From contig NZ_JAERQN010000008.1 in the NCBI RefSeq assembly GCF_016805305.1, positions 124,001-188,000 on the forward strand: a DNA stretch of 64,000 nt. The letters are read 5' to 3'. Source of the DNA: Falsiroseomonas ponticola (GTDB lineage Bacteria > Pseudomonadota > Alphaproteobacteria > Acetobacterales > Acetobacteraceae). Positions 22,424 to 28,905 of this stretch are shown here, in pieces. The notes under the pieces are model-generated. The model made no database searches and was not told the origin of the DNA. It saw nothing but the letters and a program-made list of their open reading frames with translations. The position numbers and the translations under genes were made by a program. Numbering within the stretch: position 1 is the first letter of the stretch; each line of letters opens with the position of its first letter.

Positions 22424-23620
22424 TCACGGCCGGCGGAACAGGAACAGCACGCCCGCCACCGGCGCGCCCTTCTCCTCCCGCAGCACCGTCTCCTCCCGCG
22501 CCAGCGGCACCAGGCCGGCGTCGCGGGCCAGGGCCTCCACATGCGCGGGGTCGTGGCGGTAGCGGAGGCCCTGGCCCAGCGCATAGGCCGCGCCCTCCCC
22601 CTTCTCGATGCTGAAGGCGGCCAGGCCCCGCGGGCGGAGCGCTGCGGCGATGCCGGCGAGCGCGGGGCCGAGGTCGCCCAGGTAGTTCAGCACATCCGCC
22701 GCCGCCACCAGGTCGAAGGCCCCGCGATGGCCGGGCAGCCAGGCCAGCAGGTCGGCCTCGTGCAGCGCGTCGTAGAGGCCCCGCTGCCTGGCCTCCGCCA
22801 GCATGCGCGGGGACAGGTCCAGCCCCTCCAGCCGCGTCGCCATGGGCTTGAGGGGGATGCCCGAGAGGCCCGTGCCGCAGCCGAGGTCGAGCACCCGGCC
22901 GGGGCCGGAGCCCGCCCGCGCCACCAGCGCCGCCAGCAGCCCCGGGGTGCGGTAGCCGAGCCGCCCTTCCAGGTCCTGGTCGAAGCGGGGGGCGTAGAGG
23001 TCGAAGAGGTCCCGCACATAGGCGGCCGGGGCGCGGTCGGGCACCGCCTCCGCCCCCAGCGCCGCCAGCAGGAAGCGCGCCTGGGCGGCAAGGGCGGGGT
23101 CGAGGCCGGGGATGGCCAGCGCCCGCCGCGCGGCTTCCGCCGCGCCATCCTGCCCGGCCTCCCGCAGCGCATGGGCCAGCGCGATCCAGGGCTCCGGCGT
23201 GGCGGGGGCCAGCTCCGCGGCGCGGCGCAGCGGCGCGATGGCGCCGGCGGCATCGCCCATGGCGCAGAGCACCTGGCCGAGGTTGCGCAACGCCACCGGG
23301 TCCGCCGGCCGCAGGGCGAGGGCGGCGCGCAGCGTCTCCGCCGCCTCCGCCAGGCGCCCGGCCTCCGCCAGCGCGCCGCCGCGGCTGGCCAGGAAGACGG
23401 GGCTGCGGGGCTGGCGGGCCAGGGCCTGGGCGGACAGGGCCAGGGCGGCCGGCAGGTCGCCCCGCTGCCGCGCGGCCACGCCCAGCAGATTCAGCGCATT
23501 GGCGTCATCCGGGCGGAGCTTGAGGACGCGGCGATACAGCCGCTCCGCCATCGCGATCTCCCCCTTCGCATGGCGGGCGGCGCCTTCGCGCAGCAGGTCA
23601 TCGGGCGATGCTTGCGCCAA
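22424..23620 (-). CDS. TPR-repeat protein fused to a class I SAM methyltransferase
   Basis: This 398-residue protein is a two-part fusion. Residues 1-190 are tetratricopeptide repeats (AERLYRRVLKLRPDDANALN, then repeats with LALRPADPVALRNLG). Residues 200-398 are a Rossmann methyltransferase with motif I VLDLGCGTGLSGIPL and the acidic post-motif GLDLSPRMLAEARQRGLYDA, followed by a VAAADVLNYL strand. The target is unknown; TPRs suggest a protein or glycan-linked substrate. Translation seems to start with TTG 23620, preceded by GGGGGACGGGG. It is divergent from the OpgC-like gene. Confidence 0.82.
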   Translation of the reverse strand: MAQASPDDLLREGAARHAKGEIAMAERLYRRVLKLRPDDANALNLLGVAARQRGDLPAALALSAQALARQPRSPVFLASRGGALAEAGRLAEAAETLRAALALRPADPVALRNLGQVLCAMGDAAGAIAPLRRAAELAPATPEPWIALAHALREAGQDGAAEAARRALAIPGLDPALAAQARFLLAALGAEAVPDRAPAAYVRDLFDLYAPRFDQDLEGRLGYRTPGLLAALVARAGSGPGRVLDLGCGTGLSGIPLKPMATRLEGLDLSPRMLAEARQRGLYDALHEADLLAWLPGHRGAFDLVAAADVLNYLGDLGPALAGIAAALRPRGLAAFSIEKGEGAAYALGQGLRYRHDPAHVEALARDAGLVPLAREETVLREEKGAPVAGVLFLFRRP

Positions 23621-23649
23621 GGCCCCGTCCCCCGCGATGCTGTGGGCAC

Positions 23650-24819
23650 ATGTTCACATCCATCCATTCGCTCGTGCGGCCGGGACGGGACCTTCGGGTG
23701 GATTTCATCCGCGGCCTCGCCCTGTGGTTCATCTTCATTGACCACACCCCTGGCAATCTGCTGGGCCAGATGACATTGCGCAACGTGGCCTTCTGCGACG
23801 CGACCGAGGGATTCGTCCTGCTGGCGGGCTACGCCGCCGGCATCGCCTATGGCCGGCTGCTGGAGCGGGAGGGCTGGGCGCATGCCGCGGCGCGGGTCGC
23901 GGGGCGGGTCGGCACGCTCTATGTCGCGCATATCTTCCTGTTCGTGGTGTTCACGGCGCAGGTCGGCTTTTCCGCCGCGGCGCTGGACCAGGCCGCCTAT
24001 CTCGACGAACTGCAGCTCGACCCCTTCGGGGCCGAGCCCTACCGCGCGATGCTGGAGGCGCTGCTGCTGCGCTACCAGCCCGCCTTCCTCGACATCCTGC
24101 CGCTCTACATCGTCGTGCTGGCGATGTTCGCGGTGGCGCTGCCGCTGATCAACCGCCCCGCCTGGCTGCTGGCGGCCTCCGTCGCGCTCTACGCCGCCGC
24201 GCGGCTGCTGGAATGGGCGCCGCCGTCCTGGACCGGGTCGGGCTGGTTCTTCAACCCGCTGGCCTGGCAGCTGCTGTTCGCCATCGGCGTGGTGCTGGGG
24301 CGGGCGGACCCGCAGGCGCTCGCCCGGCGCTTCCCCTGGAACCGCTGGCTGGCGGTGCTGGCGGTGCTGCTGCTGCTGGCGGCGGCGGTGCTGCTGAACC
24401 TGACCTGGCATGGCCCGGCGCGGGGGTGGGAGCCGCCGGAATGGCTCGCCGCCTGGCTCGCGGGCGTGGACAAGACCGGGTTGCACCCGGTGCGCGTCGC
24501 CTCCGTGCTGCTGATGGCCTGGCTGGTGGCGCATTGGTTGCCGGCCGGCGCGCGCTGGCTGAACGGGCCGCCGGCCGCGCCCTTCGTGCTGATGGGGCAG
24601 CAGGGGCTGGCGGTGTTCTGCGCCGGCATCTTCCTGTCCTTCCTCGGCCGGCTGGCGCTGGAACTCGCCTCCGGCGGCTGGGTGCAGGCGGCGGTGAACC
24701 TGGCCGGGCTGGCGGCGCTGGTCGTCGTCGCCGTCGTCTCCGCCTGGTATGGCGGGGAGGGCAAGCGCCGGAAGCCCGCCGCCGCCTTGCCGGCCACGGC
24801 GCAGGCGGCTACGCCTTGA
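23650..24819 (+). CDS. OpgC-domain integral membrane acyl/succinyltransferase
   Basis: This protein of 389 residues has about ten transmembrane helices. The OpgC family entry is clear: RDLRVDFIRGLALWFIFIDH, followed by RNVAFCDATEGFVLLAGYAAG. OpgC proteins transfer succinyl or similar groups to osmoregulated periplasmic glucans or related glycans. The ATG at 23650 starts just before the conserved block. A gene for an SGNH hydrolase follows after 5 nt, a pairing often seen in polysaccharide acylation. No glucan synthase (OpgGH or NdvB) is in the window. Confidence 0.85.
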   Translation: MFTSIHSLVRPGRDLRVDFIRGLALWFIFIDHTPGNLLGQMTLRNVAFCDATEGFVLLAGYAAGIAYGRLLEREGWAHAAARVAGRVGTLYVAHIFLFVVFTAQVGFSAAALDQAAYLDELQLDPFGAEPYRAMLEALLLRYQPAFLDILPLYIVVLAMFAVALPLINRPAWLLAASVALYAAARLLEWAPPSWTGSGWFFNPLAWQLLFAIGVVLGRADPQALARRFPWNRWLAVLAVLLLLAAAVLLNLTWHGPARGWEPPEWLAAWLAGVDKTGLHPVRVASVLLMAWLVAHWLPAGARWLNGPPAAPFVLMGQQGLAVFCAGIFLSFLGRLALELASGGWVQAAVNLAGLAALVVVAVVSAWYGGEGKRRKPAAALPATAQAATP

Positions 24820-24824
24820 GCCCC

Positions 24825-25625
24825 ATGGCCCGCATGCGCACCCTGCTGCGGCCGGCGCTGGTCCTGGCCGCGATCCTGCTTCCGCCCGGCATGGCCGGGG
24901 CGGAACCCGCCGGCTGTTCCGCGCCGCCGGAGGCGATGGAGGCCGCGCCCCTGCCCGGTTCCGTCGCCGCCCTGTCCCGCGGCACGCTGCGGGTGATGGT
25001 GGTGGGCAGCGCCTCCACCCAGGGGGGCGGCACCTCCGGCCCCGCCGCCACTTGGCCGGAGAGGCTGGACAAGGTGCTGGGCGCCCGGGTCGCGCCGGCC
25101 ACGGTGCAGGTTTCCGTCTATGGCGGCCGCGGCACCACGGCGGCGGACCACGCCCGCATCATCGCCGACCAGGCGCCGCGGCTGCGGCCGCACCTCATCA
25201 TCTGGCAGCTCGGCACGGTGGAGGCCGCGCGCGGCCTGCCGCCGGACGAGATGGTGGAGGCGGTGCAGGACAGCGTGGCGCGGCTGCGCGCCAGCCGGGG
25301 CGAACGCACCGACGTGGTGCTGGTGGACCCGCAATTCAGCCGCTTCTTCCGCGCCAATGCGGATGTCGAGACCTATCGCGACCGCATGCGCCTGGCGGCC
25401 GCGGCCTCCGGCGCCCAGCTGTTCAGCCGCTGGACCATCATGAAGCACTGGGCGGAGACGGACCGGCTGGACCTGGAACGCGCCGCGCGCGCCGACCGCG
25501 TGGCGACGGCGGACCAGCTGCATGACTGCCTGGCGCGGGCGCTGACGCAGTTCATCCTGCAGGGCACGCTGCGCGGGCCGCGGGACCGGCCGCCGGGAGA
25601 GAGGCCGGCCGGCGAAAGGCCGTGA
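24825..25625 (+). CDS. Secreted SGNH/GDSL-like hydrolase
   Basis: This 266-residue protein has a signal peptide (RTLLRPALVLAAILLPPGMAGA) and an SGNH-type core: LRVMVVGSASTQGGG holds the block I Ser, YGGRGTT resembles block II, and LIIWQLGTVEAARG is the block III region (Gly-x-Asn is not strict here). A late DQLHDC supplies the Asp-x-x-His pair of block V. Such enzymes remove or transfer acyl groups on glycans in the periplasm, consistent with the OpgC-like partner 5 nt upstream. Its stop overlaps a possible GTG start of the PhyR-like frame. Confidence 0.75.
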   Translation: MARMRTLLRPALVLAAILLPPGMAGAEPAGCSAPPEAMEAAPLPGSVAALSRGTLRVMVVGSASTQGGGTSGPAATWPERLDKVLGARVAPATVQVSVYGGRGTTAADHARIIADQAPRLRPHLIIWQLGTVEAARGLPPDEMVEAVQDSVARLRASRGERTDVVLVDPQFSRFFRANADVETYRDRMRLAAAASGAQLFSRWTIMKHWAETDRLDLERAARADRVATADQLHDCLARALTQFILQGTLRGPRDRPPGERPAGERP

Positions 25626-25660: not shown

Positions 25661-26371
25661 ATGGCGATCGAACCGCACCTGCCTGCGCTGCGCCGCTATG
25701 CCAGGGCTGCCATGGGCAGCAGCCGCCTCGGCGATGCCGTGCTGGCGGGCTGCCTGCCCCGCCTGGCGCGGGAAGCGCGGGACCGGGATGGCCTGCTGCG
25801 GGGCCTGATCGCCGCGCTGGATGGCGGCAGCCTGGCGCGCATGGCCGCCCCGGGCGACCTGCCCGGCGCCATCGCCCGCCTGCCGCCCCTGCCCCGCCAC
25901 GCGCTGCTGCTGACGCTGCTGGAACAGCTGCCGGCCGACCATGCCGCCCTGCTGCTGGGCGTGACGCCCGGTGAGGTGGCGGAGGCGCTGGCCCAGGCGC
26001 GCGGCGCGCTGGCGCCGCTGCGGCCGGCGCGGATCCTCATCATCGGGGATGGGCGCGGCACGCTGGCGCAACTCGTCCAGGGCCTGGGCCATGCGGTCTG
26101 CGCCCAGGTGGCGAATGAGGATGCGGCCTGGCAGGCCGCCGCCCGCACCCGGCCCGACCTGGTGCTGGCGGAAGCCGCCCTGCCGGATGGCGGCTGCGGG
26201 CTGGCGGCCGTGCAGCGCATCGCCGCGAATGACGCCGTGCCGGTGGTGCTGGTGGGGGAGGATGCGCTGGCGGCGCATGGCTTCCCGCTGCTGCGCCGGC
26301 CCTGGCGGGCGGAGGCGCTGCGCCACGCGATCGGACGGGCATTGAGGGGACGACATGGGCGGGCGGGGTAA
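25661..26371 (+). CDS. phyR: PhyR-like general stress regulator with degenerate receiver
   Basis: The N-terminal 115 residues form the sigma-factor-like domain of PhyR (HLPALRRYARAAMGSSRLGD, then LPPLPRHALLLTLLEQLPAD). Residues 123-228 are a receiver fold in which nearly every catalytic residue is changed. The acidic pocket is IIGDG instead of IIEDE, the phospho-acceptor position is Glu171 (LVLAEAALPDG), the Thr/Ser is Gly199 and the conserved Lys is Arg213 (RRPW). Phosphorylation therefore seems impossible; the Glu might mimic the phosphorylated state. I chose ATG 25661, where PhyR proteins begin, over GTG 25622. nepR follows with a 17-bp overlap. Confidence 0.82.
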   Translation: MAIEPHLPALRRYARAAMGSSRLGDAVLAGCLPRLAREARDRDGLLRGLIAALDGGSLARMAAPGDLPGAIARLPPLPRHALLLTLLEQLPADHAALLLGVTPGEVAEALAQARGALAPLRPARILIIGDGRGTLAQLVQGLGHAVCAQVANEDAAWQAAARTRPDLVLAEAALPDGGCGLAAVQRIAANDAVPVVLVGEDALAAHGFPLLRRPWRAEALRHAIGRALRGRHGRAG

Positions 26372-26612
26372 GGGCGGCGTCGCCGGGCCGGGGGCGGAAC
26401 CCGAACGCCCCCCGGACGCTTGCAGCGACATGAGCGCCCATCTTCACAGCCCCGCCGCGTCCGCGCCGCCGGCGCCCGCCATGGCGGGCCCGGATGCCGC
26501 GTTCGACCGCTGGCTGCGGCAGGAGCTCTCCCGCCTCTATGATTCCGCGCTGTCGGAGCCGGTGCCGCCGGAATTGCTGCGGCTGCTGGAGGAGGGCGAG
26601 AAGCCCCGGTAG
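26355..26612 (+). CDS. nepR: NepR-type anti-sigma factor
   Basis: This 85-residue protein has the NepR core in its second half: FDRWLRQELSRLYDSALSEP followed by VPPELLRLLEE. NepR sequesters the EcfG sigma factor until the sigma-like domain of PhyR displaces it. The start at 26355 lies inside the end of the PhyR-like gene behind GAGGGG; ATG 26430 would give a 60-residue protein of more usual length but has no ribosome site. Coupling to the PhyR-like gene suggests the two are made together. The stop lies 3 nt from the stop of the convergent sigma gene. Confidence 0.88.
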   Translation: MGGRGKGGVAGPGAEPERPPDACSDMSAHLHSPAASAPPAPAMAGPDAAFDRWLRQELSRLYDSALSEPVPPELLRLLEEGEKPR

Positions 26613-26615
26613 GCG

Positions 26616-27116
26616 TCAGTCCAGCGCCGCGCGCAGCGCATCCCGCGCGCGGGAGAGGCGGGACCGCACGGTGCCGACCGGAATGCCCAGCACCTGCGCC
26701 GCCGCCGCATAGTCCATCCCCTCCACCACCACGAGCCACAGCGCCTCCCGCTGCATCGGCGGCAGGCGGAGGAAGGCGGCGGCGACATCGGTCATGGCGT
26801 GCCGCTCCTCCTGCCCGCCGGAGACGGGGATGGCCTGCCCGGCCTCGTCATCCAGCGGCGAGAAGCGGCGCAGGCGCCGCAGCTCCGCGTTCCGCGCATT
26901 GCGGAGGATGACGAAGAGCCAGGCGCGCAGATTCGTCCCCGGCGAGAACTGGGCCCTGGCGCCGATGGCGCGCAGCACCGTTTCCTGCACCAGGTCGTCG
27001 GCCGCGTCCGCGGGACGGATCAGGACGCGCGCGAAACGCCGCAGCCGCGGTATCTCGGCGGCCACGGCCGCGGCGAAGGCATCGGCCGCCGTTCCACACC
27101 CCTGTTGCTCAGCCAC
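26616..27116 (-). CDS. ecfG: EcfG-type ECF sigma factor
   Basis: This 166-residue sigma factor has region 2 (RFARVLIRPADAADDLVQET, then NLRAWLFVILRN with the core-binding helix) and region 4 (LPPMQREALWLVVVEGMDYA, then LGIPVGTVRSRLSRARDALR). The NARNAELRRLRR link between them and the neighbouring nepR and phyR-like genes identify the EcfG group. A GTG start at 27116 is inferred. In most Alphaproteobacteria nepR and ecfG form one operon divergent from phyR; here ecfG faces nepR head-on. I found no GGAAC-N16/17-CGTT promoter in front of it. Confidence 0.88.
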   Translation of the reverse strand: MAEQQGCGTAADAFAAAVAAEIPRLRRFARVLIRPADAADDLVQETVLRAIGARAQFSPGTNLRAWLFVILRNARNAELRRLRRFSPLDDEAGQAIPVSGGQEERHAMTDVAAAFLRLPPMQREALWLVVVEGMDYAAAAQVLGIPVGTVRSRLSRARDALRAALD

Positions 27117-27158: not shown

Positions 27159-27234
27159 GCGGGCCGGCGGGCGATCAACGGATGCGTGCGCTTGAACAAC
27201 GTTTTGTCACCGCAAACCGAATCAACGCGTAACG

Positions 27235-28905
27235 TCAGAAAAGACCTTCGATCCTGCCGTCGGGATCGAGGCCGATGGTCTCCGCCGCAGGGCGGCGCGG
27301 CAGGCCGGGCATGGTCATGATCTCCCCGCACACCGCGACGACGAAGCCGGCGCCGGCGGAAAGCCGCACGTCGCGCACCGGCAGCACATGGCCCGTGGGC
27401 GCGCCGAGCGCGGTCGGATCCGCGCTGAAGGAATACTGCGTCTTCGCCACGCAGACCGGCAGGTTGCCGAAACCCTCCTGTTCCCAGCGCGCGAGCTTCT
27501 GCAGCACCGGCGCGGGGAAGGAGACATCGGCGGCGCGATAGACCTCCTTCGCAATCGTCCGGAGCTTGTCGGCCAGTGGCATGGCATCGGGGTAGAGCGG
27601 CTGGAAGCGCGCAGCGCCGGAGGCGATGCGCGCCTGCACCGCCCGCGCCAGCTCCTGCGCGCCCGCCGCGCCATCGCCCCAATGCGTGCAGAGGATGGCC
27701 TGGGTGTCGAGCCGCGCCATGGCGGCGCGGATGGCCTCGATCTCCGCCGGCGTGTCGCTGGTGAAGCGGTTCAGCGCGACGACGACGGGCACGCCGAATT
27801 TGTGGACGTTCTCGACATGGCGGGCGAGGTTCACCACGCCGCGCTCCACCGCCGCCACATCCTCCCGCCCCAGGTCGGACTTGGCCACGCCGCCATGCAT
27901 CTTCAGCGCGCGCACGGTGGCGACGATGACGCAGCAGGCGGGGCTGAGGCCGGCCATGCGGGCCTTGATGTCGAAGAACTTCTCCGCGCCGAGGTCGGCG
28001 CCGAAGCCCGCTTCCGTGACGACGACGTCCGAGAGGCCGAGGCCGAGCCGCGTCGCGACCAGGCTGTTGCAGCCATGCGCGATGTTCGCGAAGGGCCCGC
28101 CATGCACCAGGGCGGGCGAGCCCTCGATGGTCTGCACCAGGTTGGGGGAGAGCGCATCGCGCAGCAGCGCGGCCATGGCGCCATCCGCCTTCACGTCCCG
28201 CGCCGTCACCGCCGTGCCGTCGCGGCGCCGGCCGACGATCATGCGGCCCAGGCGTTCCTGCAGATCCTGCAGGTCCCGCGCCAGGCAGAAGACGGCCATG
28301 ACCTCGCTGGCCACGGTGATGTCGAAGCCATCCTCCCGCAACACGCCCTGGCTCGCGCCGCCCATGCCGACGACGCAATCGCGCAGGTTGCGGTCGTTCA
28401 TGTCCATGGCGCGGCGCCAGGTGACGCGGCGCGGGTCGAGGCCGAGTTCGTTCCCCCAATAGAGGTGGTTGTCCACCATGGCGGAGAGCAGGTTGTTGGC
28501 GCTGGTGATGGCGTGGAAGTCGCCGGTGAAATGGAGGTTGATGTCCTCCATCGGCAGCACCTGGGCATAGCCGCCGCCCGTCGCGCCGCCCTTGACCCCG
28601 AAGCAGGGGCCGAGCGAGGGCTCCCGCAGGCAGATCATCGTCTTGGTGCCGAGGCTGTTCAGCGCATCGCCGAGGCCGACCGTCGTGGTCGTCTTGCCCT
28701 CCCCCGCCGGCGTCGGGCTGATGCCGGTGACGAGGACGAGGGCGCCGGGTGGGCGTGCGGAGGCTTCGGCAACGAAGGCCGTGCCGATCTTCGCCTTGTA
28801 CTTGCCATAGGGTTCCAGCGCCTCATCCGGGATGCCGGCGCGGGCCGCGATCTCCTGGATCGGGCGGAGCGTCGCCTTGCGGGCGATCTCGAGGTCGGTG
28901 GCCAT
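27235..28905 (-). CDS. fhs: Formate--tetrahydrofolate ligase
   Basis: This 556-residue protein has the standard length. It shows the ATP-binding loop [18 protein letters not shown] near residues 65-82, [20 protein letters not shown], the [16 protein letters not shown] strand and the C-terminal [20 protein letters not shown]. The enzyme makes 10-formyl-THF from formate, THF and ATP in one-carbon metabolism. ATG 28905 matches the family start ([16 protein letters not shown]); longer frames upstream do not. It is monocistronic and divergent from the DUF1289 gene. Confidence 0.97.

Follow-up and report, generated by a model that had tools for sequence, protein, structure and literature searches.

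PhyR is an alphaproteobacterial anti-anti-sigma response regulator (PF22029, PF22233, NF006623). Like the members of this family, the protein described here, PhyR2, comprises a sigma-like half and a receiver half and is encoded beside nepR-like and ecf genes; unlike them, it lacks the acceptor Asp, the Thr and the Lys, and it scores 122.5 bits against NF006623, the cut-off of which is 240 bits. It is encoded in the window, i.e., the whole 64 kb stretch of DNA that was analysed (genome G000). RT-PhyR' of Rubellimicrobium thermophilum is reported to bind NepR in the unphosphorylated state, uncoupled from activation by BeF3 (PMC12148442). RT-PhyR' is likewise one of two PhyR proteins in its genome, and a phosphorylation-independent function has been proposed for it; however, it still has D191 as its acceptor Asp and shows a response to BeF3 alone, whereas the site of PhyR2 is lost (PMC12148442). 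Asp-less or pseudo-receivers such as ChxR, HP1043, and RitR resemble PhyR2 in having a receiver fold without the phosphorylation residues, as set out in PMC12632262 and PMC4395418, but the output of PhyR2 would be a sigma-like trap for NepR, and PhyR is not mentioned in the main text of either source. In Methylobacterium extorquens, extra NepR-type proteins able to bind PhyR are present in one genome; there it is the anti-sigma factor that is duplicated, and the part of the paper available reports no dead PhyR (PMC4814048).

Each component has been described before: pseudo-receivers, PhyR proteins, and a phosphate-independent action proposed for one PhyR. In a search of open-licence papers (CC0, CC BY, and CC BY-SA), no PhyR with a missing acceptor or a destroyed site was found, nor was anything on PhyR in Acetobacteraceae. 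A 2025 review names the on/off control of pseudo-receivers a major unknown (PMC12632262). The locus described here allows live receivers, a dead receiver, and the lack of a receiver to be compared at one conserved position with NepR-like genes alongside, making both PhyR function without phosphate and the death of a receiver before gene loss testable.

The phyR2 locus and its receiver

The features of the locus, in window coordinates, are as follows:

25661..26371, + strand: phyR2, predicted to encode a PhyR-derived protein with a pseudo-receiver (236 aa; ORF, translation, Pfam, NCBIfam, alignment)
25661..26020, + strand: sigma-like half of phyR2, residues 1–120 (Pfam domains above cut-off; signature residues)
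26021..26368, + strand: pseudo-receiver half of phyR2, residues 121–236
26045..26053, + strand: Gly129-Asp130-Gly131 replacing E-D-E (translation, alignment)
26171..26173, + strand: Glu171 (GAA) at the position of the phospho-acceptor Asp (identical codon in G009)
26255..26257, + strand: Gly199, adjoining a nine-residue deletion that takes the conserved Thr and the following residues (alignments)
26297..26299, + strand: Arg213 at the position of the conserved Lys (alignment; Gln in G009)
26430..26612, + strand: nepR2, NepR-like anti-sigma gene (60 aa; a NepR-like gene is at the locus in 14 of 15 genus genomes)
26616..27116, − strand: ecf2, ECF sigma factor gene convergent with nepR2 (Sigma70_r2 and Sigma70_r4_2 above cut-offs)

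Translation of phyR2 from the ATG at 25661 revealed no internal stops. The sigma-like half, which the first-pass annotation had described as looking intact, is recognisable: it retained 15 of the 17 residues at positions at least 90% conserved in other PhyR proteins, and scored above the Pfam cut-offs for PhyR_sigma2 (residues 3–40; 37.2 bits, cut-off 27) and PhyR_sigma-like (residues 72–113; 31.5 bits, cut-off 27), the latter being no strict mark of PhyR, as the canonical PhyR1 of the same genome and the PhyR2 of G073 (Roseomonas acroporae NAR14, locus L066) do not match it. The receiver scored 24.1 bits with Response_reg (cut-off 30.2), and the PhyR of G052 (locus L177), with its phosphorylation site intact, likewise fell under the cut-off (28.3 bits). 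With NF006623, the copy in G009 scored 113.8 bits, the intact proteins of G064 (Acetobacteraceae MAG SJ55, locus L065, 82% complete), G073, and G052 scored 253, 168.5, and 173.3 bits, respectively, and the own PhyR1 249.9 bits. In place of the acceptor Asp, Thr/Ser, and Lys that characterize PhyR, PhyR2 has Glu, a deletion, and Arg. It falls among the pseudo-receivers (PsR), its receiver being recognisable and the key phosphotransfer residues missing, while its linkage to nepR and ecf genes is that of PhyR. Among solved structures, its best relatives (4g97, 3n0r, 9by5, and 9cb6) belong to PhyR or response-regulator proteins; these, the Pfam domains, and the orthologue in G009 led us to reject a chance ORF or a mis-assigned gene. 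The predicted structural model of PhyR2 showed a confident receiver fold with α4 nearly gone and β5 weak in comparison with the intact G064 protein. On PhyR crystal structures essentially only its receiver superposed, and the model of the intact G064 protein superposed over the full length only at an rmsd of ∼18.

The loss of the phosphorylation site was evaluated in an alignment of 56 PhyR rows, including several near-identical species and forming part of those found (rows from the loci compared, 19 PhyR rows from 76 loci, and G052); seven rows were removed before counting, namely, L028, L119, L120, and L108 (not PhyR), L092 (partial), and L034 and L035 (duplicates of L066 and L065). The acceptor is Asp in 54 of the 56 and Glu in the window and G009, in agreement with the earlier claim that this Asp had been replaced by Glu171. 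The first acidic position is Glu in 54 and Gly in the remaining two, and the Lys column holds Lys in 54, Arg in the window, and Gln in G009. Over the receiver, PhyR2 kept 21 of 42 residues conserved at 90% or more, the median for the other 54 proteins being 100% and the lowest value 65% (G052). The finer claims of the first-pass annotation held in part. The outer acidic residues are gone (GDG), but the middle one, Asp130, is retained; the Thr is absent through the nine-residue deletion and not by substitution, Gly199 being the next residue; and Lys has become Arg213 in the window protein, a change not shared with G009. It thus looks impossible, judging by these residues, for PhyR2 to be phosphorylated in the canonical manner.

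The copy in G009 is 69% identical and has the GDG, the GAA codon at 171, and the nine-residue deletion in common with that of the window. The two genes differ at 182 of 708 sites, and both frames are full-length without indels. Changes common to two genomes whose copies have diverged to this extent are more than chance, and a base-call error at 26171-26173, which the first-pass annotation had named as grounds for abandoning its reading, was ruled out by the recurrence of GAA. It had given the same weight to close homologues with an intact acceptor, and here the outcome was divided: the nearest orthologue has Glu, and three more distant ones have Asp. The estimated contamination of the assembly is 6.83%, yet the phyR2 locus is syntenic in the genus.

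The first-pass annotation had also raised permanent activation through Glu mimicry, i.e., Glu171 imitating phospho-Asp and locking PhyR2 in an active, NepR-binding state. Glu171 and its codon are indeed common to both species, and two papers describe Glu as the commonest substitute in Asp-less receivers (26%; PMC4395418) and as activating some regulators (PMC12632262). However, a Glu in this position may work through contacts with the conserved Thr and Lys (PMC12632262), both of which are missing from PhyR2, as are the outer acidic residues. The same sources note that substitution alone is often insufficient (PMC4395418) and that testing has disproved some models of this kind (PMC12632262). 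Two species of the genus, moreover, keep only remnants of the gene. Mimicry by Glu171 is hence disfavoured and appears very unlikely.

A nepR-like gene follows phyR2, as the first-pass annotation had stated, and has the same orientation. The best start of nepR2 is at 26430, the initial MSAHL being common to G001, G009, and G013; starting at an alternative in-frame ATG (26355) would create an overlap with phyR2. The product scored 20.6 bits with Pfam NepR (cut-off 25.7), as compared with 26.9 bits for the own NepR1, 22.4 bits for the NepR2 of G052, and no match at E 0.01 for that of G064. It is named NepR-like owing to this missed cut-off and to the conserved core WLxxELxRLYD...EPVP. The ecf2 product contains, by Pfam, the sigma-70 regions 2 and 4 that a putative EcfG factor should have, and shares 41 and 43% identity with the pair of ECF factors encoded at the canonical locus. 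The order phyR2, co-oriented nepR2, convergent ecf2 is identical in G009.

Distribution and origin of phyR2

The search proposed in the first-pass annotation for a second, canonical phyR was successful, as contig C24 of the same genome carries a phyR1 whose site is intact, together with nepR1, two ECF genes, and a gene that we take, from its sequence, to be kinase-like. The two ECF sigma genes lie in tandem between phyR1 and nepR1 (L010 8300-8869 and 8923-9519). Among the 15 genus genomes searched, phyR1 was present in 14 and was not found in G003. That phyR2 is a recent copy of phyR1 was rejected, as it falls in a separate clade and its locus is syntenic across genera; for this tree, the software warned of long branches and unusual composition, making the deeper placement unsure.

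All 15 genus genomes were inspected at the fhs locus, up to 1,500 bases past the match (953 in G006). The NepR-like gene is missing there from G004 alone, and ecf2 was present in G000, G001, G009, and G013 (orthologues 89% or more). Full-length phyR2 was confined to G000 and G009, with dead receivers in both. An in-frame vestige of 67 codons with a weak profile match (E 0.0046) remains in G001, and in G013 the gene is reduced to its last codons, identified by eye; nepR2 and ecf2 are intact in both. In the remaining 11 genomes phyR2 was not found, and 10 of the 15 (L205, L206, and L208-L215) carry the NepR-like gene without phyR2 or ecf2 in the stretch beside fhs. Of the 14 genomes that have nepR2, 12 lack a full PhyR2, which suggests another use for NepR2, plausibly with PhyR1, in the manner of the Methylobacterium NepR paralogues that bind PhyR (PMC4814048).

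Of 397 genomes sampled from the family, 25 contained a relative of ecf2 (E 1e-36 or better); phyR2 adjoins it in three (G000, G052, and G064), with a remnant in G001. The other 21 showed no PhyR match beside ecf2, save ecf2 itself, within flanks of ∼1.5 kb, beyond which a phyR2 would be missed. A NepR-like ORF is present in 20 of these 21 (not in the short stretch of G035), some matches being weak (E up to 6e-4). The NepR profile was built from six sequences (window, G009, own NepR1, G073, G064, and G052) and matches their loci by construction, which does not apply to its matches in the remaining genus genomes or at the 20 family loci. The NepR-like ORFs beside ecf2 in L181, L182, and L188 have a strongly altered core, suggesting from sequence either decay of NepR or a new partner.

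PhyR proteins whose receivers are intact occur in three other genera, at this locus or at one that matches it in part. G064 and G052 share the gene order of the window (phyR2, nepR-like gene, convergent ecf2, fhs), with one extra gene in G052. In G073, phyR2 and nepR2 lie beside the same TPR-methyltransferase gene, and ecf2 and fhs are not alongside (we assigned the names TPR-methyltransferase, OpgC, SGNH, and fhs by reading the sequences). The window, G009, G064, and G073 formed a clade with a support of 100/99 in a tree of 49 proteins that did not include G052. The window PhyR2 matches the G052 protein at 37 bits versus 54 bits for phyR1; G052 is thus no closer in sequence than phyR1, and its orthology rests on gene order. 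Owing to these intact relatives, PhyR2 most likely descended from a phosphorylatable PhyR, the site being lost in the lineage of the window, which also has phyR1. No PhyR other than the locus copy was found in G064 (at its 82% completeness) or G052, where the locus, as that of the sole PhyR found, may be the main stress-response locus; G073 holds phyR1 as well as the intact phyR2. When the two dead copies were compared with 395 genomes of the order (a sample without G009), the window itself and the intact G073 protein were the only matches at E 1e-30 or better.

The branching of the four species with ecf2 varied with the data. G000 was outermost with fhs and the phyR1 locus (96/91, 92/88), fhs alone did not resolve the order, G009 was outermost in the phyR1 protein tree (92/87), and G000 joined G009 at 62% in a protein tree of five genes that included distant outgroups. 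A sister relationship of G000 and G009 would allow the death of the receiver to postdate the split from G001 and G013.

Selection on phyR2 and its possible function

Nei-Gojobori counts with codon bootstrap, comparing G000 with G009, gave a dN/dS of 0.44 for phyR2 (0.31-0.61; 0 of 2000 replicates at or above 1), four times that of phyR1 (0.11); nepR2 and ecf2 gave 0.20 and 0.15, respectively. By region, and with the noise of a single species pair and unequal dS, the ratio was 0.60 (0.35-0.96) for the sigma-like half, versus 0.15 in canonical PhyR, 0.31 (0.18-0.49) for the receiver, 0.22 for its core (residues 121-200), and 0.66 (0.26-1.65) for residues 201-236. These ratios suggest retention of phyR2, with a constraint far weaker than that on PhyR1 and weak also in the half expected to bind NepR. 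The intact reading frame was rejected as a sign of function, as 26-41% of neutral simulations were also stop-free. The strongest constraint lies on the core of the receiver; this, together with the confident receiver fold of the model, would suit a docking or ligand-sensing module through which PhyR2 is switched by a small molecule or by a further protein; with no partner gene identified and the estimate being noisy, this appears very unlikely.

The close rival to our preferred reading is that PhyR2 is a decaying relic: PhyR1 would have taken over NepR2, the receiver would have lost its function, and the gene would be disappearing, with little or no function left in the species of the window. 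The fourfold higher dN/dS and the remnants in G001 and G013 point this way, and the NepR-like gene without phyR2 and ecf2 in 10 of 15 genus genomes indicates that NepR2 does not need PhyR2. Redundancy also favours decay, since the genus of the window has phyR1 (14 of 15 genomes) and the intact copy is the only PhyR found in G064 and G052. In addition, the NepR paralogues of Methylobacterium extorquens bind PhyR, with no binding to sigma detected (PMC4814048). On the other hand, dN/dS is below 1 across the whole gene and in the receiver; the dead receiver would have been carried since the common ancestor if G000 is the deepest of the four species; and G073, with phyR1 and an intact phyR2, shows that redundancy alone does not force decay. 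Decay is therefore a serious possibility, though somewhat more doubtful than probable.

We tentatively prefer, at a little under even chances, the reading in which PhyR2 derives from a phosphorylatable PhyR, has a pseudo-receiver, binds NepR in the absence of phosphate, and is controlled by its amount. By sequence, the metal and phosphate site was dismantled in the lineage of the window, and the full-length protein was retained in two species. With the acceptor, Thr, and Lys gone and α4-β5 eroded, a histidine kinase would no longer be able to switch the receiver, and NepR-type proteins may have access to the sigma-like half. PhyR2 would then titrate part of the NepR2 made beside it, so that a larger share of Ecf2 is free at the basal level, or a larger share of the canonical PhyR1, should NepR2 bind PhyR1 too. 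Its use may be conditional, for which reason other species could lose it.

Phosphate-independent binding of NepR by PhyR2 is favoured by the retention of the sigma-like signature alongside the loss of that of the receiver, by a dN/dS of 0.44 after site loss with a full-length, indel-free frame in both species, by nepR2 and ecf2 kept in order, and by the intact receivers of the PhyR proteins found at this locus in G064 and G052 and, with a partial match, in G073. It is in agreement with the model, in which the receiver fold persists with α4 and β5 degraded, and with the precedent of an unphosphorylated PhyR paralogue binding NepR, uncoupled from activation (PMC12148442). It is weakened by the poor constraint on the sigma-like half, the supposed effector (0.60 vs 0.15), and by the mere remnants of phyR2 in G001 and G013, where nepR2 and ecf2 are intact, and its apparent lack in 11 genus genomes. 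The phosphorylation-independent PhyR envisaged in the first-pass annotation is consistent with the lost site, the full frame with dN/dS below 1, the nepR-like gene, and the canonical phyR1, its permanent activation by Glu being the part that the data did not support. The wider picture, that of a partner switch with its input cut, in which a PhyR lost phosphorylation through receiver decay, is still selected as a dose-controlled NepR trap, and stands midway from the intact ancestral form to full loss of the gene in one family, is put forward with less than even confidence.

Upstream of phyR2 lie OpgC-like (23608-24819, + strand) and SGNH-like (24825-25625, + strand) genes, named from their sequences, with which it may be co-transcribed, the gaps being short. 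The EcfG-type promoter GGAAC-N16/17-CGTT had no match within the window (0.33 expected by chance), giving no sign of EcfG control over the phyR2 locus, and relaxed forms gave no convincing match; the strict form was found in 15 of the 64 loci compared, some of which overlap. Between the fhs stop and ecf2, a stretch of 66 bases that adjoins the stop (27172-27237, − strand) is identical to the window at 66/66 positions in G009, 64/66 in G001, and 62/66 in G013, and is possibly the promoter of ecf2.
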